NCBI GenBank assembly: GCA_018432315.1
Contig: JAHDLB010000023.1
Coordinates: forward strand, 124,001-188,000
Direction: 5' to 3'
From: Anaerolineae bacterium
Lineage (GTDB): Bacteria; Chloroflexota; Anaerolineae; Aggregatilineales; Aggregatilineaceae
DNA length: 64,000 nucleotides
Position 1 is the first letter of the stretch. Each line of letters opens with the position of its first letter. Both the position numbers and the translations under genes were made by a program. Positions 6,093-30,597 of the stretch are shown one piece after another. Under the pieces are notes generated by a model. It was not told the DNA's origin, searched no databases, and saw nothing but the letters and a program-made list of their open reading frames with translations.

Positions 6093-6629
6093 CTATTCAC
6101 ATTTGTCGTCACACGAGCCGGTTTTTCCGCAAAGTTGCTCAATTCCCGTAATGTCATAACTGGACGACGAGGGAGTGTGAAACGACTGAAACGAGCCGTG
6201 AACACGTTCCCGGTTGTAGTCGTCCTGGTACTCGCCTAACTGAGCGTTCAGCTCTTCAAGCGATTGGGTTAGGTCGGCAACCGCATACGACTCCTGCAAC
6301 GTTGCCTTCTGCCCCCGCTCCACCTTGCCGTTGAGATGGGGTGAACGGGCGCGCTTGGGATGCCAGTTGATGCCCCACTGAGCCAGTGTTTCGCGTACAT
6401 CGTAGGCGGTGAACTCCCTGCCCCGATCGGTCTGGATACGCTGAATAGGGAACGGCATTTCCTCGACAATGTGCGGGAGAAACTTCAGCTTGTTTGCGGC
6501 TGTGCGGTGGGGATATAGCCTCGCAACCTGGTAACGTGTGCCATCGTCGATGGCCGTGTACGGATAGTTCCCGTTAGCGATTTTGATGGTGTCCACCTGC
6601 AAGCGTTCGCCGGGCACGCGCCGCGGCAC
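6093..6629 (-). pseudogene. Truncated integrase-core (DDE) transposase, IS481/IS3-like
   Basis: The DDE core is readable: VDTIKI (first Asp), IQTDRGREF (second Asp) and HLNGKVERGQ (Glu), followed by the family-typical DYNRERVHGS. The N-terminal helix-turn-helix part is missing, and the C-terminus diverges after HGSFQ, where family members have a further conserved block. No terminal inverted repeats were found. It is a dead insertion-sequence fragment between the regulator and the apbE gene, marking the edge of the organohalide locus. Confidence 0.75.
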
Positions 6630-6759: not shown

Positions 6760-7803
6760 TCACAGGCGCGGAAAAGCTGCGGATTGAGTCTGGCTGCCGT
6801 CTTTGCCTACCAGCAGCCCCTCAACGTCTGGCAGGCGGGCTAGCAGAGTGAGCGTTTTGTCTGCGCCGAGCACGATTGCCGCCGTTGCCAGCGCGTCCGC
6901 ATCGCACGCGGTGGGCGCGATCACGCTCGCGCTGCTGAGTTCCAGCGGAGAAGCGCCTGTGCCGGGCATAAGGATATGGTGCAGGCGAAAATCGGGCGTG
7001 AAGGCTTGCATATAGTCTCCGGAGGTTGCCAGCGCACAGTCGCGAAGCTGTGCCACACCGAGCGCGCGATCGATCATCGAGTCGCGGGGCGCTTGCAGCC
7101 CAACCTGCCAGGGGCGATCACCTGCCATCCCCTGCGCCTGCATATCGCCACCCAACTCGACCAGCACCTGCTCGAAGCCGCGCCGCCGCAGCTCATGCGC
7201 GCCCTGGTCGATAATGTACCCCTTGGCAATACCATCCAGCGTGATCGCCATGCCGGGCTGGCGCAGGTGGATACGATCCGCGCTCACGTCGATGTCACGG
7301 AAATTCACCAGGGCGCGCAGCCGGGCGACCTCATCTGTGGCAGGCAAGCCGCCCGTTAACGCATGGTGGCGGTACAGCGCCAGGACCGGCTCAACCGTCA
7401 CGTCAAACGCACCGCCCGTCAGCGCGCCAAAATGCAATGCCCGCTGCAGCACGTCGACCAGCGCGGGATGCGGATCGCGCAGGTCGCCGCTGCGGTTGAG
7501 GTGCGAAAGCTGGCTGTCGGTCCGGAACCGGCTCATTACGCTTTCCAGCACGGCCATCGTGGAAAACGTCGCTTCAATTGCCGCCTGGGCCGCGTCCGCG
7601 CGATCGGTGATGAGCGTGATGTTGGCAACAGTGCCCAGCAGCAGGCGGGTCGTCTGGATGCGGTGGAGTCGCCGTTCGGTGTGTAAGGCGTCGACTCCCA
7701 ACGCCCCGGCCCCGGCAAGCGATCCCGCAACGGCCACGATCTTCAAGAACTGGCGGCGCGCGAAGCGCGGATTCAAATGATCACCGGTGCGTTCAGTGTT
7801 CAT
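6760..7803 (-). CDS. apbE: FAD:protein FMN transferase (ApbE), Tat-exported
   Basis: Transfers FMN from FAD covalently onto a threonine of target flavoproteins outside the membrane. ApbE landmarks are GTVANITLIT, SRFRTDSQLSHLNRSG, FDVTVEPVLALY, ITLDGIAKGYIID, VELGGDMQAQG and the C-terminal ADALATAAIVLG. A twin-arginine leader (ARRQFLKIVAVAGSLAG) points to Tat export. It follows the gene for an FMN-binding membrane protein whose SGATVSS site is the expected target. That pairing, within an rdh operon, supports a role in flavinylating the RdhC-type partner. Start ATG has A/G-rich sequence upstream. Confidence 0.9.
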   Translation of the reverse strand: MNTERTGDHLNPRFARRQFLKIVAVAGSLAGAGALGVDALHTERRLHRIQTTRLLLGTVANITLITDRADAAQAAIEATFSTMAVLESVMSRFRTDSQLSHLNRSGDLRDPHPALVDVLQRALHFGALTGGAFDVTVEPVLALYRHHALTGGLPATDEVARLRALVNFRDIDVSADRIHLRQPGMAITLDGIAKGYIIDQGAHELRRRGFEQVLVELGGDMQAQGMAGDRPWQVGLQAPRDSMIDRALGVAQLRDCALATSGDYMQAFTPDFRLHHILMPGTGASPLELSSASVIAPTACDADALATAAIVLGADKTLTLLARLPDVEGLLVGKDGSQTQSAAFPRL

Positions 7804-7811
7804 CGTTCCCC

Positions 7812-8060
7812 CTAAAACGTGAGCGTCGGCAGCTTTGTGCGTGGATCGATGGTCGGCAGTGGAGCCGGCGGGACCGCGGAAGGCGTCGGCGTGGTCTGCC
7901 GGTAGGTATGGGCGGGATAGCCCTGCGCGTCTTCCGTCGTGGCGGTCATCCCCGCGTCGTTGAAGGCAGTGATCAGGGTAAGCGCCACCAGCACAAAGCA
8001 CGCTGCTGCAAAAGCGATCAGGAGCCCTTCCGGGAGGCGCGATTGTTTCGATTTACCCAT
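7812..8060 (-). CDS. Small single-span membrane protein in the rdh operon
   Basis: An 82-residue protein with one hydrophobic segment (LLIAFAAACFVLVALTLITAF, about residues 12-32) after a basic N-terminus, followed by a short Pro/Thr-rich outer tail. No family is recognised. The reading frame overlaps the end of the preceding RdhC-like gene by 43 bases and ends eight bases before apbE, so it is embedded in the operon. A later start cannot be excluded. It could be an extra membrane component of the respiratory chain; nothing in the sequence proves it. Confidence 0.5.
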   Translation of the reverse strand: MGKSKQSRLPEGLLIAFAAACFVLVALTLITAFNDAGMTATTEDAQGYPAHTYRQTTPTPSAVPPAPLPTIDPRTKLPTLTF

Positions 8061-9253
8061 AAGCCCTTCGTCCAATTTCTCGCATCTTGTACGTAATCGA
8101 CTACCGGCGACAGCGGGCACACGTAGTTACAGAACGGGCGGTAAATCACGAGCGAGGCCAGCAGCACCAAGACCAGTAACACCCACTGCGGCCACGATCC
8201 CTTCAGGTTAAACAACGTGCCGAACGGTTCGTAACTCGCTGCCCCAGGCATTCGCAGCGCCAGCCCTAACACGATCGCGCTGAACGCCAGCCCGCGCTGC
8301 GCCCAACGCAGGTGGTTGTATATCCGGCGCGGGAGATACGGCTTGGCTCCGGTGAATGTCCCCAGGACTTCCTGCACGCCGCCAAAGGGACAGAACCACG
8401 AGCAGTAGGGATTTTTTCCCTGAATCAATGTGACCGAGAATATGCCGCCCAGCAGCACAAACCAGTACAGGTTGGTGCGCCAGTCGGGCCAGTAGCCCGT
8501 GAGCAGCGAGATCACATTCGCCAGCGTGAGCGGTTTGTTGTACAGAAAGCCGAGCGTCACGATGCCAACCAGCAGCACCGCCCAGCGTCCATAGTGCTTC
8601 ACGCTGGGCCGGCGCACGCGGTGCAACACAAAACTTACCGCAAACAGCGCCACCAGCACAATCTCAGGCGCGCCAATCACGACAGGACGTTTTTCGGGCG
8701 GCACCGAAACGTTCAGTGTATCGCCCGCCATAGCGCGCACAGCCTGGCGGATGCCCATCGCCACCGCTTCCGAGCTGACAGTTGCTCCGCTCACAGCATC
8801 GATCGCATCAGCATCGCCGAGCGTCTCACGATAGCCGCTGCCGATAAACTGAGCCAGGAAATTCTCGCGCCCCAGCAGCCGGAAAAAGCCGGGTGTTTCG
8901 TGGTGCTTGATGATCTGCGCCCCGATCACGACGCCATCGGGATCGATCCCGACCAGCACATCGACCGGGCCGCCATAACCGGGTGCGGTGCCCACCTGGG
9001 CGTAGCCGATGATCTGCTGTCCATCCGGGCCGCCGTAGCCGATAAACACATCGCGGCGCGCCTCGACACGCTCGGCGCCGGGCAGCACGTCCGGCACAAC
9101 CTGCTGCACGTCGTAGCCGGAGTGAAGATAGCCATACAACCACGCGCCGATGATCACCATGACGGCTAATACACTTAGCCTATGCCGCCGGCGCCGGGCC
9201 TGTGCGCGGCGTAATTGGATCGAGTGTGGCGTGGACGTAGTGAGTGAGGTCAT
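8018..9253 (-). CDS. FMN-binding polyferredoxin membrane protein, RdhC/PceC/NosR type
   Basis: Residues about 27-45 form a first membrane span; an FMN_bind domain follows with the covalent site SGATVSS at 155-161 (Thr158 is the expected flavin acceptor). Several more spans come next, plus two Fe-S-type motifs: CSWFCPFGG near residue 284 and CNYVCPLSP near 375. This layout is shared by NosR, RnfG-fused proteins and PceC of reductive dehalogenase operons. The context (rdhA, rdhB, apbE) favours an RdhC/PceC-like electron carrier from quinol to RdhA over a nitrous oxide role. No nos gene is present. Confidence 0.85.
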   Translation of the reverse strand: MTSLTTSTPHSIQLRRAQARRRRHRLSVLAVMVIIGAWLYGYLHSGYDVQQVVPDVLPGAERVEARRDVFIGYGGPDGQQIIGYAQVGTAPGYGGPVDVLVGIDPDGVVIGAQIIKHHETPGFFRLLGRENFLAQFIGSGYRETLGDADAIDAVSGATVSSEAVAMGIRQAVRAMAGDTLNVSVPPEKRPVVIGAPEIVLVALFAVSFVLHRVRRPSVKHYGRWAVLLVGIVTLGFLYNKPLTLANVISLLTGYWPDWRTNLYWFVLLGGIFSVTLIQGKNPYCSWFCPFGGVQEVLGTFTGAKPYLPRRIYNHLRWAQRGLAFSAIVLGLALRMPGAASYEPFGTLFNLKGSWPQWVLLVLVLLASLVIYRPFCNYVCPLSPVVDYVQDARNWTKGLWVNRNNRASRKGS

Positions 9254-9410: not shown

Positions 9411-9683
9411 TCACTCGGCCAACGCTTCGCGGCTGCGCCATGCACGGACTGCGACAACAGCGGTCAGGATCACCCCCGGCAGCCCAAACGACACTAACAG
9501 GATGTTGGCCGCTTTGGGTTCCAGTTCCGCGCGAGATTGGCTGAAGTTCACAATAGCGAGCAGGAAGAACACAACCGCCACCGCGAGCAGAATCCAGTCA
9601 TACCACGTCAGCTTGATATCCTCGCGCGAGTAGAGATAGACAAAACCCGCGCCGATGAGCAGACCAAAGATCAAGGTCGTCAT
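9411..9683 (-). CDS. rdhB: Reductive dehalogenase membrane anchor (RdhB-like)
   Basis: A 90-residue protein with three predicted helices: TLIFGLLIGAGFVYLYS, WYDWILLAVAVVFFLLAIVN and ILLVSFGLPGVILTAVVAV. The LTWYDW start of the second helix and the FGLPGVIL block of the third match RdhB/PceB anchors, which tether the exported RdhA to the membrane. It lies directly downstream of rdhA with 31 bases between, the canonical rdhAB order. There is no rdhB next to the second rdhA, so this anchor may serve both. Confidence 0.88.
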   Translation of the reverse strand: MTTLIFGLLIGAGFVYLYSREDIKLTWYDWILLAVAVVFFLLAIVNFSQSRAELEPKAANILLVSFGLPGVILTAVVAVRAWRSREALAE

Positions 9684-9714: not shown

Positions 9715-11091
9715 TTACGCGTCTTTGTGACCAACAGTGGTGTCGATGCCCAGTTCGGCGTAGTCCAGTTCCCACCACTCCTCAGTATCCTTCTGAGGCT
9801 TGTCCGCATCGCCGCCCAGATATGTCGTCCGGCTCAGGCTTGCCAGCGCGCCGTCAAAGATCGGAGTCACGCCCACAATGCCCTTAACCATCTTGTGGAT
9901 CAGCGCCTTGTCCTTGACTGAGAAAGGACACACCGAGAAGCAAATACCGCAGTTCGTGCCCACTTCCGCCCAGTAGGCGCGGCATGTCGGTGAATTCTCG
10001 TACCACGTCTTGACGCCGCCGCGATTCCAGCCGCCCCGTGTTTCGTAGGACGGCTCCGAGTCGAAGCTCAGCGAGCCGGAGGGGCAGTATTCGGCGCAGG
10101 TCTTGCACGCTTTGCAGAAGTTCATGATCCCGGCGTTGATCGGCTTGGTGGGGGCCAACGGCAGGTCAGTGACCAGCTTGAAGACGCGCACCATCGGGCC
10201 ATATTCCGGTGTTACAAGGCGATTCAGGCGCGATAGCTCGCCCAGCCCGGCCATGACGCCGAACGCGGGTGCGATGCCGAGCGCATTGGTTTCCGCCTCG
10301 CCGAGCGCCATATACCCGATGCCCTTCAGGAACGATTGCAGGCGGCCCTGAATCGCGCGGTTGCGTGCGTACGCGAGGCTGGTCGTTGCCGCGCCGAGCG
10401 GCGTTGGGCAGCGCGTCATGCCTTCGCTGGACATTTGCACGGTCCACACAATGACCCAGCGCGCCTTGCGCGGGATCACGCGTGTATCTTCGGTTTCGTC
10501 GGGCTGATCCACGTCCTGGAATTCGACCTTTTTGCCATCGGGGTCGATCGCGTAGATCAGTTTTTCGGTGTTCTCGTCCAGCTCGACAAAGCCCACCGTC
10601 GAGGCTCCAAACGAACGCAGCGCCGCGCGGACCATCGCGGCGTTGTCTTCCGGCGAGCCTTCCCAACGGGGCACGCCGCGATCTTCGGGCGTCTGGGCGT
10701 CCGGCCCCAGGAAGGACTGTGTCGCGCCCACGCCGGACGCCGAATACAGCGCCAGGTCGCGGATCGAATACCCTGGGCGGCCTTCGAGCGCGTACTGGTT
10801 GCCGATAGTGCGCTGTTGCGCGCCGAGGCGATCTACCTCCTCTTGTGATACATACTTGTTCCAGCCACGGCGCACCGTGTTGCGTTCGTCAAAACGGTAG
10901 ATGAAATCCCAATCGATCTCAACGGTTGGCTTGTCCACTTCGCGCACCCAGGGCGGGCGGGAGGCAAGACCGGCTTTGTCGAGCCAGTCTTCCCCGAATA
11001 GCGATACTGGCGCGATGCTGGCTACGCCAGCGCCAACGCCAAACAAGCCCATATCGCGTAAGAACTCGCGGCGGGAAAGATTGTGAGGCAT
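9715..11091 (-). CDS. rdhA: Reductive dehalogenase catalytic subunit (RdhA), copy 1
   Basis: A corrinoid and Fe-S enzyme that removes halogen from organohalides as a respiratory electron acceptor. A Tat leader (LSRREFLRDMG) is followed by the family-like WVREVDKPTVEIDW, then GLGELSRLNRLVTPEYGP and TDLPLAPTKPI. Two 4Fe-4S binding motifs follow: FCKACKTCAEYCP at about residue 326 and CGICFSVCPFS at about 377. The 458-residue length is normal. The start was chosen for its GGAGA ribosome site and because the Tat motif follows at once. It sits with rdhB, RdhC-like and apbE genes under a cobalamin riboswitch. The substrate cannot be read from sequence. Confidence 0.93.
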   Translation of the reverse strand: MPHNLSRREFLRDMGLFGVGAGVASIAPVSLFGEDWLDKAGLASRPPWVREVDKPTVEIDWDFIYRFDERNTVRRGWNKYVSQEEVDRLGAQQRTIGNQYALEGRPGYSIRDLALYSASGVGATQSFLGPDAQTPEDRGVPRWEGSPEDNAAMVRAALRSFGASTVGFVELDENTEKLIYAIDPDGKKVEFQDVDQPDETEDTRVIPRKARWVIVWTVQMSSEGMTRCPTPLGAATTSLAYARNRAIQGRLQSFLKGIGYMALGEAETNALGIAPAFGVMAGLGELSRLNRLVTPEYGPMVRVFKLVTDLPLAPTKPINAGIMNFCKACKTCAEYCPSGSLSFDSEPSYETRGGWNRGGVKTWYENSPTCRAYWAEVGTNCGICFSVCPFSVKDKALIHKMVKGIVGVTPIFDGALASLSRTTYLGGDADKPQKDTEEWWELDYAELGIDTTVGHKDA

Positions 11092-11144: not shown

Positions 11145-11390
11145 CTAGCGGGGTCCGCAGGACGTACAACCGGTTGCTGCCATCCCACATCCCGCGCACG
11201 ACGGTGCTCCGGCGATTGCCCGCCGCTGTCCGTCTGCCGCCGTTGAAAACACCGCGACAGCCGAGAGCAAACGCCGGGTGTGATCGCTGCCGCAGTCAGG
11301 GCAGAACGTGTCCGCATCGCGCTCCGACATGGCCTTGCGCACGGTGAAGCGCGTGCTGCATTCCTGGCAGTCGTAGCTATAGGTGGGCAT
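11145..11390 (-). CDS. FmdB-type zinc ribbon protein
   Basis: An 81-residue protein starting MPTYSYDCQECSTRFTVRKA with CxxC pairs (CQEC and CPDC) that form one zinc ribbon, and a Cys-rich tail (CAGCGMAATGCTSC). This is the FmdB/putative regulatory zinc ribbon family. Its function is unsettled; members often sit near metalloenzyme operons. It is the first gene after the cobalamin riboswitch and terminator and precedes rdhA. The short start was preferred because the MPTY start is family-typical; eight extra in-frame residues upstream would run into the terminator region. Confidence 0.8.
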   Translation of the reverse strand: MPTYSYDCQECSTRFTVRKAMSERDADTFCPDCGSDHTRRLLSAVAVFSTAADGQRRAIAGAPSCAGCGMAATGCTSCGPR

Positions 11391-11405: not shown

Positions 11406-11448
11406 GTAAAACAAAGGAGCCGGTTATTCCGAAGAATAGCCAGCTCTC
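11406..11448 (-). terminator. Intrinsic terminator of the cobalamin riboswitch expression platform
   Basis: Read on the minus strand, GGAGAGCTGGCTATTC pairs with GAATAACCGGCTCC around a TTCG loop and is followed by TTTGTTTT, a textbook Rho-independent terminator with a UUCG-type loop. It ends about 16 bases before the fmdB start and follows the B12 box of the riboswitch, so it can cut transcripts before the rdh genes. It could equally end read-through from the upstream rdhA copy. Confidence 0.85.
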
Positions 11449-11454
11449 CAGGCG

Positions 11455-11575
11455 CGTAGAGACTAAGGTGGTGGGTAGCCTGACTTCACACAGCGGCGCC
11501 GCCGCGCATGTCACAGTTGCGGCCCAGTACCGGATTTGCACCGGTTTTCCCCATTTGTGTCGTGATGATTCGATT
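11455..11575 (-). promoter_or_regulatory. Cobalamin riboswitch upstream of the rdh operon
   Basis: On the minus strand the conserved cobalamin aptamer core is readable in order: GGGGAA, CCGGTGCAAATCCGG, a CTG-like spacer, CCGCAACTGTGA, a GC-rich variable hairpin, and the B12 box AAGTCAGGCTACC. These match the GGGAA, GGTGnAAATCC, CGCAACTGT and AGTCAGG blocks of the known class. A terminator follows directly. The element lies between the two rdhA genes and would tie the fmdB-rdhA-rdhB-rdhC-apbE genes to intracellular corrinoid. The 5' border (P1/P2) is approximate because I could not fold it. Confidence 0.88.
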
Positions 11576-11690
11576 ATGCGGAATTGGGGAGCATTTGTCT
11601 GTCAGGAAGACTGGGCGTTGGTGTCGGGAAAACTGCGCGAGTGAATCGGTAATCGTGTAGGGAAATTTCCCACAGTACCCGCCCGCGAGG

Positions 11691-13079
11691 TTATCTGCTC
11701 TTTTTGGTATTGATGCCGTATTCGGGGTGATCTTGCGTCCACCACTGGCCGGGGTTCTTCTGAACGCCGTAGCCAAACGCGTCATCCATACTGCGCGTCA
11801 GGCCGTTGATCACGGGCGCATTGGCGATCTGCATGCGGATGAAGTCGTGCATGAACGACTCGTTCTGTTTGGAAAATGGGCACACAGCAAAGCAAATGCT
11901 GCAATTCGTGCTCGCATGTTCGTACCAGTACGTTTTGCAGCGCACCGAATCTTCGAACCAGGCCTGGTGACCGGGATTGCTCCATTCACCAACAGGCTGC
12001 CATCCCGGCTCATCGTCAAAGCTCAGCGCGCTGGGCGGACACGCTTCCGCACACTTCTTGCACGTCTTGCAGAAGCGCGTGATTCCGGCGTCGATGGGCT
12101 TGTCAGGGGCCAACGGCAGGTCGGTGATCAGCTTGAAGATACGCACCATCGGGCCGTATTCAGGCGTGATGACGCGATTCTGGCGCGACAGCTCGCCCAG
12201 GCCGCCCATCACGGCAAAGGCAGGTGCGATCCCCAGGCCGTTTGTCACCGCTTCGCCTAGCCCCAGGTAGCCCAGCCCGCGCAGAAATTCTTGCAGCGAC
12301 GCCTGGACCAATAAGCCGCGCTGGTAGGCGGACAGCGTCGCCTGCTCCGCGATCATGGTTGGCGCGCGCCGCATCGCTTCATCGGCCATCTGCACCGTGT
12401 AGACGATCACCCACCGGGCGCGGTTGGGAATGACGCGGCGTTGTTCGTCTTCGCTGGGCTGATCGACGTCAGCAAACACCAACTCCTTGCCGTCCACATC
12501 CACCCGGTAGATTAGCTTACGCGTGCGCTCGTCGAGCGGTACGATGCCGACTGTCGCAGCCCCCATCTGGCGCATGGCGACCTTGACGATCCGCGCATTT
12601 TCGTCGGGCGATCCGTCCCAGCGCGGTACGCCGCGTTCTTCCGGTGTTGGCGCTTGTTGGGGGCCGAGAAAGCTCTGTGGCATCTGCCCGCGCACAGCGT
12701 ACAGCGCATTACGCAGCGCCTGATCTTTCAGAGTATAGCCGCCTTCGTCGCGCAGCAGGCGTTCCTTCTGCACCTGCTCGATACGCGTCAGCAGGCGTGC
12801 GTTTTCCTGCGCGCTGGCGAAGCGTCCCAATCCACGGCCCCCGACCAACGTATCGCGCGATGCGTCCACGCGCTGCATCACGTCCCAGTTGATGCCTATC
12901 GTCGGCTGATCGACTTCGCGCACCCACCAGGGCCGCCGCGTGACACCGCCTGACGTGGTATCGCCGAGCAGATCGCCCGCCAGCGTCAGACCGGTCGCGC
13001 CTGCCACGCCCACTGTCAGCCCGGAGATGCCGAGCGTCCTAAGAAAATCGCGCCGGTTCATTCTGGCTGATTCATTCAT
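11691..13079 (-). CDS. rdhA: Reductive dehalogenase catalytic subunit (RdhA), copy 2
   Basis: The second RdhA, clearly related to copy 1: Tat leader MNRRDFLRTLGISG, WVREVDQPTIGINW, GGLGELSRQNRVITPEYGP and TDLPLAPDKPI. The two 4Fe-4S motifs are FCKTCKKCAEACP at about residue 336 and CSICFAVCPFS at about 389. The length is 462 residues. Its start overlaps the end of the upstream two-span membrane protein by eight bases, so the two are coupled. The riboswitch lies downstream, so this copy is not controlled by it unless through its transcript end. The substrate is unknown. Confidence 0.92.
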   Translation of the reverse strand: MNESARMNRRDFLRTLGISGLTVGVAGATGLTLAGDLLGDTTSGGVTRRPWWVREVDQPTIGINWDVMQRVDASRDTLVGGRGLGRFASAQENARLLTRIEQVQKERLLRDEGGYTLKDQALRNALYAVRGQMPQSFLGPQQAPTPEERGVPRWDGSPDENARIVKVAMRQMGAATVGIVPLDERTRKLIYRVDVDGKELVFADVDQPSEDEQRRVIPNRARWVIVYTVQMADEAMRRAPTMIAEQATLSAYQRGLLVQASLQEFLRGLGYLGLGEAVTNGLGIAPAFAVMGGLGELSRQNRVITPEYGPMVRIFKLITDLPLAPDKPIDAGITRFCKTCKKCAEACPPSALSFDDEPGWQPVGEWSNPGHQAWFEDSVRCKTYWYEHASTNCSICFAVCPFSKQNESFMHDFIRMQIANAPVINGLTRSMDDAFGYGVQKNPGQWWTQDHPEYGINTKKSR

Positions 13080-13449
13080 CGTTAGCGTCCTTTTCATGCG
13101 TGAGGACGGCAGTGTGTGTGCGCCGACGTGTCGGGGTTTCAGGGGGCAAAACATCATCGTCTGTGTCGTTTACGTGTGGGATATTGCGCAGCAGGTGTGC
13201 CTCGGGCCGGGCTTCCACATGACGCACAACTTCGACAATGATGCCTGCCACGAGCAGCACCAGACACAGCGCACCCGCCGTGATCGCTGCCTGCGGTTCG
13301 CGTTCATGGTGGCTTTGCAGCGCGTATTCCAGCAGCAGCACCAGGCAGATCAACCACAGCAGGCGCGCCAGCCATACGTGCAGCGGCTCGCGCTTGATGC
13401 GGATATACTCGGCGTCATCATACGAGTTTCTTGACTCCGGTGCAGACAT
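13072..13449 (-). CDS. Two-span membrane protein coupled to rdhA copy 2
   Basis: A 125-residue protein with two hydrophobic segments (LHVWLARLLWLICLVLLLEYAL and AAITAGALCLVLLVAGIIVEVV), an acidic and tyrosine-rich start (SYDDAEYIRIKREP) and a polar tail. It is not an obvious RdhB, which has three helices and a conserved Trp-Tyr-Trp start. Its end overlaps the start of rdhA copy 2, so it could be an alternative anchor or a partner subunit. I do not recognise the family. The start MSAPESRNS was chosen because it leaves a short gap after the response-regulator stop. Confidence 0.65.
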   Translation of the reverse strand: MSAPESRNSYDDAEYIRIKREPLHVWLARLLWLICLVLLLEYALQSHHEREPQAAITAGALCLVLLVAGIIVEVVRHVEARPEAHLLRNIPHVNDTDDDVLPPETPTRRRTHTAVLTHEKDANDE

Positions 13450-13493: not shown

Positions 13494-14171
13494 TCAGGGC
13501 AGCGAGTCGCCATCAAGCAAATTCTTCTTCAATGCATATTGTACCAACTCGGCGCGGCTGTCCAGTCGCAGCTTATCCATCAGGCGCTGGCGATAGGTAT
13601 CGACCGTTTTGGGGCTGAGGTACAACATCTCACCGATCTCGCGGCTGCTGTAGCCAAGCGCGGTGAGCGTCAGCACTTCACGCTCTCGATCGCTGAGCAT
13701 ATCCAGGGTGTCTGTTTCAGGACTCTCGTTGTCGTCGGTTTGGTCGCGATAAGCGTCCAACAGCACCTGGGTGGCTTCCGGATACAAATAAGACTTACCC
13801 TGCGCGACGTGGCGGATAGCGTGGATTAGCTCGGTATCCGCGCCGCTTTTGAGCACGTAGCCGGCCCCACCCGCTTGCAGAACGTGCAGAATATATTGTT
13901 TATCGGCGTGCATGGTCAGAACAAGCACGCGTGTTTGGGGATAGTTCGTCGTGATGTGATCGATGATATCCAGCCCACTCATGCCGGGCATTGTGAGATC
14001 GAGCACGACAACGTCAGGCCGCATCAGCTCGATTTGTTGGAGCGTTTCGGCCCCGTCGCTGGCTTCGCCGACGACTGCCATATCGCGCTCGCTGTTCAGC
14101 AGTACGCGCAACCCGGCACGCAGCACCGCATGGTCATCGGCCAGCAGAATTCGGATCTGCGTCTCGCTCAT
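13494..14171 (-). CDS. NarL/FixJ-type response regulator
   Basis: Receiver domain: ILLADDHAVLRAGLRVLL, VVVLDLTMPGMSG with the phosphoacceptor Asp, VLVLTMHAD and YVLKSGAD. LuxR-type output domain: LSDREREVLTLTALGYSSREIGEMLYLS followed by TVDTYRQRLMDKL. The 225-residue length is standard. It starts 18 bases after the sensor kinase gene and precedes the membrane protein and rdhA genes, so it is the obvious candidate to activate them. That link is by position only. Confidence 0.92.
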   Translation of the reverse strand: MSETQIRILLADDHAVLRAGLRVLLNSERDMAVVGEASDGAETLQQIELMRPDVVVLDLTMPGMSGLDIIDHITTNYPQTRVLVLTMHADKQYILHVLQAGGAGYVLKSGADTELIHAIRHVAQGKSYLYPEATQVLLDAYRDQTDDNESPETDTLDMLSDREREVLTLTALGYSSREIGEMLYLSPKTVDTYRQRLMDKLRLDSRAELVQYALKKNLLDGDSLP

Positions 14172-14188
14172 AGTCCCCCATGTAAGGC

Positions 14189-15850
14189 TCAAACAATCGG
14201 CAATTGAATGTGAATAGTGGTCCCCTCGCCAGGCCGCGAGTCCACACGCAGTGTGCCGCTCACGATCTCGATACGCTCGCGCATCCCCAGCAAGCCCAAT
14301 CCACACTCGCCCGACTGTAACACCCCTTCCAGGTCGAATCCACAGCCGTCGTCCTCGATGCACACATGCAGCGCAGACGCTTCGCGTGTGAGAGCAATCC
14401 GCGCGCTGGATGCCTGCGCGTGGCGCGCAATGTTAGTCAGCGCTTCCTGGATCACCCGGTAGAGCGTGATTTCCACCTCATGTGGCAGGCGTAGATCGCC
14501 CGCTGCACTGACAGTGAATGTGAGGTCGATTCCAGTCTGCGTGGAGAATCCTTCGACGTAATTTTCTAACGCGGGCAGCAGCCCCAGATCATCCAGCGCC
14601 ACAGGGCGTAGATCAGCAGCCAACCGCCGGATCTCCTGCAATGTGCGCGCTGTCATGCTGCGCAGATCCTCGACCTGAGTCTGGATCGTGCTGGACGAAC
14701 TCTGGCGTTCGAGAATCTTCAGTTGCACCAGCAATGAAGTCAACGCCTGCCCGGTCTCGTCGTGCAGTTCGCGGCTGATGCGGCGGCGCTCTTCTTCCTG
14801 GGCAGAAACGACCTTGTTCAGCAGTTGGGCGCGAATGCGCTCTTTCTGGCGCAGTTGTTCCCACAGGTGCGTATTTTCCAGCGCGACGCTCAACTGACCG
14901 CAGATCGCGTCCAGCAGCCGCCTGTCGTGCTCAGCCAATGTGACACCCTGCCGGAAAAAGATCGCCCACAGGCCCAGCATAGTGTCCTGACCTTGCAGCG
15001 GAAACAGCAGGGCGGTCGTCAGACCCTCATGCTGGCAGGCAACGATCAACTCTGCGGGGGCCGCGCTGTGCTCAACGACATTGGCGATGTAGCGCGCTTG
15101 CCCCTCGTTCATGACATTCAGCAAGAACGGGACGACAGATTCAGGATGCACTCCACGCGCGAGGAATTCCGGGGACAGGTTATAACTGGTCGCAATCGTG
15201 AGCGTGTCATGATTTGAGAACCTCAGCAGAATACCTGCATCGGCTTCGACGGCGGACAGGCTGCGCTGCAGGCTGTAATCCAGCACGGCGGTGCGTGTCA
15301 GTGGATGGCTGGCAGCCTGTGCGAGTTCATATAATACCGCCAATTCCTCGTTGCGTTCGGCAAGCTCTCGGTTGGAGCGTCGCAGATCATCGCGTGAGCG
15401 CTGCAAACTATCGATCATTGCGTTGAAAGCGTGTCCCAGTTGGCCGATCTCGTCATTGGCCCAAACGGGCGCGCGCAGCGAGAGATCGCCGCCATCCTTG
15501 ACATACATCGCGATGTGCGTGATCTGCAGAATTGGACGTGTGAGCAGCCATGTCAGAAACCAGGCGATGGCGAGACCCGCGACAGCGGCGATTACCGTGA
15601 TAATGAACACGCCGCGCATACCAACCGACATCGCCTGCGCGACGCGCTCCTCACTCAACAGATACGACAGCCACCCGCCAAGCTCGTTACGCACCCACCA
15701 CGCCATGGTTATGCCCAGGATGAGCAGCGGCGCGACCACGATGCCGATGATCTTGCTCCGCAAAGGCACGCGTCCAGCCCAGATCCAAATGACAGCCCAG
15801 ATACTTCTGCGTTTTGGTGTGTCGCCGGTGCTCACCGATTGGATAGTCAT
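14189..15850 (-). CDS. Sensor histidine kinase (HAMP-GAF-HisKA_3), NarX-like class
   Basis: About 553 residues with two membrane spans (IIGIVVAPLLILGITMAWW near 33 and VFIITVIAAVAGLAIAWFL near 77), a HAMP linker (DEIGQLGHAFNAMIDSL), a GAF-like domain, the HisKA_3 box EEERRRISRELHDETGQAL with the phosphorylated His, and an HATPase domain (VIQEALTNIARHA, DDGCGFD, GLLGMRERI). This class pairs with NarL-type regulators, and such a gene follows at once. The external loop between the spans is short, so sensing may occur in the membrane or in the GAF domain. A signal such as halogenated substrate or redox state is a guess. Confidence 0.92.
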   Translation of the reverse strand: MTIQSVSTGDTPKRRSIWAVIWIWAGRVPLRSKIIGIVVAPLLILGITMAWWVRNELGGWLSYLLSEERVAQAMSVGMRGVFIITVIAAVAGLAIAWFLTWLLTRPILQITHIAMYVKDGGDLSLRAPVWANDEIGQLGHAFNAMIDSLQRSRDDLRRSNRELAERNEELAVLYELAQAASHPLTRTAVLDYSLQRSLSAVEADAGILLRFSNHDTLTIATSYNLSPEFLARGVHPESVVPFLLNVMNEGQARYIANVVEHSAAPAELIVACQHEGLTTALLFPLQGQDTMLGLWAIFFRQGVTLAEHDRRLLDAICGQLSVALENTHLWEQLRQKERIRAQLLNKVVSAQEEERRRISRELHDETGQALTSLLVQLKILERQSSSSTIQTQVEDLRSMTARTLQEIRRLAADLRPVALDDLGLLPALENYVEGFSTQTGIDLTFTVSAAGDLRLPHEVEITLYRVIQEALTNIARHAQASSARIALTREASALHVCIEDDGCGFDLEGVLQSGECGLGLLGMRERIEIVSGTLRVDSRPGEGTTIHIQLPIV

Positions 15851-16026
15851 GCGGTCTCTGTGACTTACTATTTCAATGATACGCTCTGTGGTGTTTGTAG
15901 TATAACCGGAGATCAGTAAAACCGAGAATGCACCTGATACCTGGACCGCCTGGTTGGGCACCGACTCAAGTTATGGCGCATTCGACACGTAGCACGCGTA
16001 TGTTTCTTGCAGGGCGATATAATTCA

Positions 16027-30048: not shown

Positions 30049-30597
30049 ATGAATCCCCGTCTTTGCAAAGCGTTGATGTCGGTCGTCATAGTCGCCGTGC
30101 TGGCGCTGCCCGCACTGGCAGTCGTCCCATCCGCTGGCGCACAGGCTGACATGCCAGTAGTGATAATAACTTGGGCTCCGGAAGAAACCTATGAAGCCCC
30201 TAACGGCAGTACCATTTTGTTGGTAACGGGCTGGTTTGTCTGTCGCGCACCAGGATTGTATACAAGCTACGAAAACGCGTTTGCCGTAGAACTTGTGGTT
30301 GATGGCCAGGTCCTGCTGGATGGATCGGTTAAGGCAACCAAGCCATACTGGCGCCCCAGACTAGACACCGGCTTCACCTACGACTTCTGCAACAACCATC
30401 CCGGCGATGAGTACGGGAACTATTGGGTATATGACTTGAGTTGGCTCGGAGTCGGTGAACACACTGTAGAATGGACGACCGTCCAGACCCATCCCGTCAC
30501 TGATATGTTAGATGGGGACGGGGATGGTAAGCCGGACCAGTATCCCGCTGGGATTATCGACGACGCGAGCGCGACGATTGTCGTAACAGCGGAGTAG
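30049..30597 (+). CDS. Small secreted protein of unknown function
   Basis: 182 residues with a clean signal peptide (LMSVVIVAVLALPALAVVPS, cut near AGAQA) and an AAAAGGAG ribosome site. The mature part is rich in aromatic residues and glycine (VTGWFVCRAPGLYTSYENAF, YDFCNNHPGDEYGNYWVYDL) with an acidic DGDGDGKPDQY stretch like a calcium-binding loop. Two cysteines could form a disulfide. It follows the hydrolase gene by 92 bases in the same direction and may be cotranscribed. I recognise no family. Confidence 0.7.
   Translation: MNPRLCKALMSVVIVAVLALPALAVVPSAGAQADMPVVIITWAPEETYEAPNGSTILLVTGWFVCRAPGLYTSYENAFAVELVVDGQVLLDGSVKATKPYWRPRLDTGFTYDFCNNHPGDEYGNYWVYDLSWLGVGEHTVEWTTVQTHPVTDMLDGDGDGKPDQYPAGIIDDASATIVVTAE

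Follow-up and report, generated by a model that had tools for sequence, protein, structure and literature searches.

A cobalamin riboswitch with a predicted activating layout ahead of a reductive dehalogenase operon in Anaerolineae

The stretch of Anaerolineae DNA analysed here (64 kb, hereafter the window) carries on its minus strand, between two reductive dehalogenase genes, a conserved cobalamin riboswitch with an intrinsic terminator. The RNA belongs to a known aptamer class and is predicted to bind corrinoid; what is probably new is its setting, a rare and probably activating layout before a corrinoid-using enzyme. We give a probability of roughly 70% to the reading that it is a corrinoid riboswitch of the ON type, which would control read-through into an operon with the order fmdB-rdhA1-90-aa ORF-rdhC-like-apbE (Table 1). 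The transcript would begin from a conserved promoter-like sequence a short way upstream. In the absence of corrinoid, the terminator, far stronger than the weak P13 hairpin, would win and end the transcript before fmdB. With corrinoid bound, loop L5 would dock on L13 and hold P13 closed; the closed hairpin would keep the base of the terminator 5' arm, polymerase would read on, and the corrinoid enzyme would be made. The purpose may be that cells importing corrinoid make no apo-dehalogenase.

Table 1. Features of the riboswitch leader, the operon behind it and its neighbours (window coordinates)
Feature	Position	Strand	Basis or remark
apbE, FMN transferase	6760..8001	minus	PF02424 226.3 bits
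rdhC-like FMN-binding/ferredoxin-type (FMN_bind/Fer4_5) protein	8018..9253	minus	PF04205, PF12801
90-aa ORF, rdhB position	9411..9683	minus	no Pfam match
rdhA1, reductive dehalogenase, RRxFL motif at start	9715..11091	minus	TIGR02486 267.6 bits, cut-off 160.35
fmdB-type zinc ribbon, first gene after switch	11145..11390	minus	TIGR02605 60.1 bits, PF09723
Intrinsic terminator	11408..11449	minus	hairpin 11449-11416, UUCG loop, then UUUGUUUU 11415-11408
GGAGA, common to P13 3' strand and terminator 5' arm	11445..11449	minus
P13 hairpin UCUCUA-CGCGCC-UGGAGA, proposed ligand-stabilised antiterminator	11445..11462	minus	-4.3 kcal/mol
L13 loop CGCGCC	11451..11456	minus	CG(N)GCC pairable with L5 GGCCG, one bulge; register hand-set
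Cobalamin aptamer core P3-P4-P5-P6, no P1/P2	11472..11553	minus	RF00174 31.8 bits; R1 70.5 bits
L5 loop GGCCG (consensus UCCCG), candidate kissing-loop partner of L13	11520..11524	minus
-10-like CATAAT	11573..11578	minus	19 nt from P3
-35-like CAGACA, between rdhA2 and riboswitch	11596..11601	minus	in 8/8 orthologous loci
rdhA2, upstream of switch and so not behind it	11691..13157	minus	TIGR02486 291.1 bits, cut-off 160.35
LuxR-type response regulator, conserved neighbour	13494..14363	minus	PF00072, PF00196
HisKA_3 sensor kinase, conserved neighbour, upstream	14189..15961	minus

The aptamer and its conservation

The initial annotation placed a cobalamin aptamer between the two rdhA genes and a UUCG-loop terminator just before the rdh operon, and both are there. 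A cmscan of the whole window returns RF00174 as the sole Rfam match, on the minus strand at 11552-11473, so the covariance search that the annotation proposed yields a significant hit (E 0.00026), although a marginal one: 31.8 bits against a gathering cut-off of 31.5, or 0.3 bits above. The match spans model positions 45-169 of 189, and the outer helices P1/P2 lie outside it. Three related leaders (L061, L063, L095) match positions 1-189; P1/P2 are common in the family yet missing from some matches above the RF00174 cut-off, and they were not taken as defining. Our own covariance model (R1) was built from 25 aptamer cores, the window core among them, which makes its score of 70.5 bits for the window leader partly circular. 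In an alignment of the 25 cores (A2), 92.8% of cells are paired under a hand-given P3-P6 structure, changes on both sides occur at 11 of the 18 pairs, and the covariation score reaches 0.489, whereas shuffles give 0.117 and slid versions of the structure no more than 0.097.

Conservation in relatives is stronger support for the aptamer than the window scores. Among 154 genomes of the order, the rdhA2-rdhA1 pair is found in the source genome (G000) and in G001, G268, G739, G781, G711, G696 and G717; in G717 two contigs each hold part of rdhA1, and in G702 rdhA2 lies at the edge of a contig. Wherever the gap between rdhA2 and fmdB is intact it holds the aptamer (RS-A; 8/8 loci, 57.9-75.8 bits under R1, with L005, which carries the same leader as L211 on G696:C312, counted once). 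Under the Rfam model five of these eight pass (the window, L061, L063, L209 and L211, the four relatives at 31.6-44.2 bits) and three fail (L208, L210, L213). A second dehalogenase lineage, rdhA3, 28-29% identical to rdhA1, has the switch at all three of its loci (L062, L095 and L105, in G001:C2, G272 and G114), L105 also lying below the RF00174 cut-off. Two genes 39% identical to the rdhA3 lineage (L342, L343) are without it.

Most strong rdhA matches of the class are without the switch. Across the class, R1 finds a switch before rdhA in 3 of 58 regions with strong TIGR02486 matches (L063, L095 and L105, within L063-L120), a count to be read with the fact that some regions stop at contig ends, where leaders may be missing; L061 and L062 stand outside it, having been picked for carrying a riboswitch. 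In 14 phylum-mates R1 marks 50 places, and 30 loci taken with 1.5 kb on either side hold no match to the rdh operon or rdhA3 at 1e-5 or better (best 0.035). The idea that small genomes rich in rdhA from other parts of the phylum carry the same switch was dropped on the absence of rdh matches in these 30 loci.

The genes behind the switch are those of a dehalogenase operon, with one reservation. The earlier reading fmdB-rdhA-rdhB-rdhC-apbE stands by family matches for fmdB, rdhA, the rdhC-like gene and apbE, but "rdhB" is a label by position only for the 90-aa ORF, which is matched in all seven relatives at 52-69% identity (tblastn). The best solved match of RdhA1 is PceA (4uqu, E 1.2e-46), and corrinoid binding and dehalogenation are known for RdhA relatives such as PceA. 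Upstream, the response regulator is matched by tblastn in G001, G268, G739, G781, G711, G696, G702 and G717, and the sensor kinase in all of these but G711, where the contig runs out at that point.

The sequence between rdhA2 and the aptamer is conserved as well and probably acts as a promoter. At 17 nt past CAGACA, a spacing that was imposed, with no chance control behind the match counts, all eight loci have a hexamer with 4 or 5 of 6 matches to TATAAT (CATAAT in two, CATACT in three, then GACAAT, CACAAT and CAAAAT), 14-61 nt before P3. In the window, G711, G696 and G717 the distance from hexamer to P3 is at most 19 nt, which would explain why P1/P2 are missing. In 7/8 loci CCYGACA is repeated once at a spacing of 22 nt, with the -35-like element at the end of the second copy (about 11628-11596 in the window). 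A palindrome like TGTAGGGAAATTCCCTACA lies farther upstream in four loci by pattern, and inspection by eye shows a comparable one in the window; repeats and palindrome are possible sites for the neighbouring LuxR-type regulator. The motif GACAGACA, found at the promoter-like sequence, has two more copies in the window, at 30244 and 36892 on the minus strand.

Could the two-component system set the operon on its own, with an RNA that no longer switches, a relic aptamer or an always-active terminator? The low Rfam scores of several members would fit, as would the conserved promoter-like sequence and the regulator genes alongside. However, the nucleotides of the core, the pairing of P13 and the match of L5 with L13 survive sequence change in eight genomes, and the aptamer recurs in the second rdhA lineage, so a defunct switch is highly improbable.

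Strand sharing and the predicted sign

Procknow et al. (PMC10653944), who dissect one repressing and one activating corrinoid riboswitch, offer a rule for reading the sign from anatomy. In both, corrinoid stabilizes P13 by way of a kissing loop between L5 and L13. The repressing switch has the 3' side of P13 paired with the 5' side of the terminator; in the activating one, before cobT of Alkalihalobacillus halodurans, the 3' side of P13 is the terminator 5' sequence, and P13 is the antiterminator. That switch is, by the same account, the first activating corrinoid riboswitch known, all earlier ones being repressing.

Every one of the 11 rdhA-linked leaders has the cobT-type arrangement. When P13 is placed by hand, the terminator pairs 4-7 nt of the hairpin's 3' strand and loses 4.5-24.9 kcal/mol if that strand is blocked; in the window leader the figures are 4 of 6 nt and 5.6 kcal/mol. 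A script with a tighter terminator boundary, which could handle nine of the leaders, gives an overlap of 2-6 nt, and two leaders beyond its reach (C_G272 and C_G114), done by hand, share 5 and 7 nt. The repressing arrangement of the P. megaterium metE type, with a P13 3' strand pairing with a separate terminator 5' strand, is not found in these leaders, and the overlap of P13 with the terminator leaves no room for it. Energies point the same way. On its own, P13 of the eight RS-A leaders is worth -1.8 to -4.6 kcal/mol and the terminators -17.6 to -26.6 (window terminator -16.6 and -17.6 in two computations), so the default state should be termination. Since the P13 3' strand doubles as the terminator 5' arm, the published rule would make this an activating switch, and B12-ON is the sign that the layout most likely favours, opposite to that of almost every B12 switch known.

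Control leaders behave differently. Twenty-nine were given and 26 could be evaluated, 20 of them other riboswitches of the family (several near-relatives) and six labelled B; L006 and L021 were dropped for want of a detectable L5 and L008 because its L5 was misread. In the 26, the gap between P13 and terminator is +22 to +66 nt with 0 nt shared, a contrast to be read in the light of the fact that the script alone makes false overlaps. The initial annotation had left OFF control, ON control and cofactor economy open; on anatomy the choice now tends to ON (11/11 rdhA leaders against 0/26 controls).

An ordinary OFF riboswitch, in which bound corrinoid would favour termination and reduce rdhA1, for instance to leave more of the cofactor to other enzymes, is unlikely. 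Precedent speaks for it, as every corrinoid riboswitch before A. halodurans cobT represses according to PMC10653944, and so do three genomes (G268, G739, G781) in which P13 could form alongside most of the terminator. There the remnant of the terminator left after P13 forms still abuts the U-tract (gap 0), so that P13 may only weaken it; exclusion between P13 and terminator is weak in these 3 of the 11 rdhA-linked leaders. It also speaks against the ON reading that in 5/11 leaders P13 is already part of the minimum-energy fold before the 3' arm of the terminator is made, with the ligand absent. However, the overlap leaves no room for the usual antiterminator of OFF control between P13 and terminator, where the 26 controls have 22-66 nt. 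Nor was another found upstream: in the 11 leaders the best duplex of upstream RNA with the unshared part of the terminator 5' arm never falls in the lowest 5% of shuffles (0.12-0.84), a test with little power in C_G272 and C_G114, whose arms are only 4 nt. Beside an uptake operon of the repressing type, it would also make little sense to silence a corrinoid enzyme at a time of ample corrinoid.

The ON reading places weight on P13 and its loop, and both hold up under sequence change. On six distinct RS-A rows 34/36 P13 cells are paired, a level reached by 4 of 720 permutations, and the shared strand fits the 3' side of the terminator in 39/40 cells. Covariation at the terminator base on distinct rows is not above permutation (1752/5040), as U-tracts pair with much. 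L5 and L13 can form five compatible pairs in 8/8 RS-A leaders when bulges are skipped, with register and bulges placed by hand. The two loops change together: GGCCG goes with CG(N)GCC or CG(N)GUC, AGCCG with CG(N)G(N)CU and UUCCG with CG(A)GAA, and in many controls UCCCG, the L5 consensus given in PMC10653944, goes with CG(N)GGA. A kissing loop of L13 with the P4 loop (UGCAAAU) was dropped in favour of L5, there being no complementarity by eye.

How often would such an overlap arise by chance? With the terminator kept and the linker shuffled, an overlapping P13 that has a matching loop and is at least as stable as the observed one turns up in 0.4-11% of cases for 10 rdhA-linked leaders, and at loose settings in 3-25% for 11; the rdhA-linked leaders are related, and these per-leader figures must not be multiplied. 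C_G272, whose P13 has an A.C mismatch, fails the automatic P13 criterion at loose settings. One leader alone proves little, but for all of them, over two lineages, a chance origin is unlikely.

Corrinoid supply and the neighbouring, putative uptake switch

In five relatives (G739, G781, G711, G696, G717) a second riboswitch follows apbE (L208, L209, L210, L211 and L214). Its layout is the repressing one, with a gap of 25-36 nt and 0 nt shared, and it passes RF01482 in four (L208-L211; L214 of G717 lay outside the Rfam run). Behind it, in the three relatives checked (L208, L209, L211), are genes of BtuF/BtuC/BtuD type: a periplasmic binding protein in L208 and L211, an FecCD permease in all three and an ABC ATPase in L208. 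The best NCBIfam matches in L208 are BtuC for the permease and a corrinoid ATPase for the ATPase, all below curated cut-offs. Corrinoid uptake and corrinoid use would then be wired side by side with opposite sign. The window has, at the place of this twin (6093-6629), an IS481-type transposase ORF of 178 aa that matches the second half of the model only, and the uptake riboswitch with its genes was possibly lost by an IS481-type insertion. The source genome has one other RF00174 match (G000:C43, L216, 4948-4879 minus), of repressing layout; the gene after it bears a weak squalene-cyclase/SCO2321-like similarity (97.8 bits, cut-off 300).

CbiC, taken as a marker of corrin-ring synthesis, is absent from 11/11 genomes tested and present in 7/14 control genomes, most of those tested being drafts. 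Corrinoid import is the simple reading of this absence, which concerns one marker and not the whole pathway, and the carriers of the switch presumably import or salvage corrinoids; the source genome encodes a cobalamin adenosyltransferase. For a cell that imports its corrinoid, it pays to produce a corrinoid enzyme only while the cofactor is available, so the ON sign makes sense. The cofactor economy that the initial annotation had put forward as one way out of its paradox agrees with the missing CbiC.

What the aptamer would sense is a separate question. It might respond to another corrinoid form or to a precursor, in which case the ON switch would report uptake and not cofactor sufficiency. 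The characterised activating switch of A. halodurans cobT does respond to cobinamide in the account of PMC10653944, and the present genomes, without CbiC, presumably belong to corrinoid salvagers. We hold this reading unlikely; it is compatible with the mechanism of the main reading.

Known systems and other loci

The window RNA shares with typical members of RF00174 the P3-P6 core, L5, a P13 kissing hairpin and an intrinsic terminator. It is unlike them in that its match is without P1/P2, in that it precedes a corrinoid-using enzyme, and in that L5 is GGCCG, or AGCCG in relatives, where the consensus has UCCCG, L13 being altered to fit. A close counterpart is the cobT switch, in which the P13 3' strand is likewise the terminator 5' strand and P13 the antiterminator; as described in PMC10653944, it controls a biosynthesis gene and answers to cobinamide, whereas here rdh operons of two rdhA lineages in Anaerolineae are concerned. 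In Dehalobacter restrictus, also an organohalide respirer, the same aptamer class occurs with predicted transcription terminators, but according to PMC4285132 the switches, all five of them, stand before corrinoid biosynthesis or uptake operons, whose genes cobalamin represses. The Listeria RNAs Rli55 and Rli39 have the same net effect: the B12-dependent eut and pdu pathways are on only with B12. There, as PMC7377500 has it, riboswitch-truncated non-coding RNAs act on EutV or pocR, whereas here direct action in cis is predicted.

RNA motifs upstream of rdhA have been noted in Chloroflexota before. The WRC-34-1 rdhA motif is described in PMC11109978 as a weak riboswitch candidate with 18 representatives, mostly in Dehalococcoides; it is set apart from the present RNA by its description and not by sequence, and the words "cobalamin" and "adenosylcobalamin" are absent from that paper's main text. 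One sentence in PMC5102406 places riboswitches, of a kind not given, ahead of tceA and of an S-layer gene of Dehalococcoides. Among the matches listed from the open-licence literature, no report of corrinoid-riboswitch control of rdhA was found, and none is contained in the retrieved passages of PMC9600662, PMC4285132, PMC13390484, PMC11109978, PMC9481103, PMC12415852, PMC5102406, PMC13390414 and PMC7585037. One natural activating corrinoid riboswitch was found described, that of PMC10653944, and it controls a biosynthesis gene. An activating switch before a corrinoid user would be direct cofactor economy, predicted by riboswitch logic and not known so far from this class. If the reading is true, corrinoid supply would set the dehalogenase level, which bears on the dependence of dehalogenation on B12-supplying neighbours. 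An existing Bacillus subtilis GFP reporter for the class can take these leaders unaltered, which makes this sharp prediction an inexpensive one to test.

Does strand sharing extend beyond rdhA? A survey of the order took in 90 R1 loci, two places being present twice and several repeating control loci. The script returned a gap for 58 of the 90, at 16-71 nt in 48 and under 10 nt in ten. Inspected by eye, only L272 of the ten is real and L284 and L289 are ambiguous; the close gaps of L232, L241/L309 (one place), L273, L290, L305 and L306 were rejected, the real terminator lying far downstream. Of the remaining 32 loci, 17 gave no core, six no terminator and nine a hairpin that begins ahead of the 3' strand of P13.

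L272 (G784:C46, minus strand 1579-676) is a strand-sharing riboswitch before a corrinoid protein (PF02310) and mtmB (PF05369), placed by Rfam in RF01482. As scored by the script, its P13 does not exceed chance (0.30; 0.57 at loose settings), and the best 30 loci homologous to its corrinoid protein show no clear riboswitch, one being marginal (L324, 18.3 bits) and 29 without any. As a single instance, the mtmB case is a lead. Together with the two rdhA lineages, this methylamine-methyltransferase operon (corrinoid protein plus mtmB) makes up the instances of what could be a recurrent design in Chloroflexota, in which corrinoid-activated riboswitches would license corrinoid enzymes only with imported cofactor and uptake operons, in some genomes directly behind the rdh operon, would carry the repressing form. 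We regard such a design as an even bet; if it is true, one ligand would drive opposite switches for uptake and for use. One cluster of the aptamer was noted elsewhere: part of L217, a locus of G392 with no rdh-operon match, has three cobalamin riboswitch cores within 6 kb (G392:C7:167496-173336) and a strong fourth at 189175.
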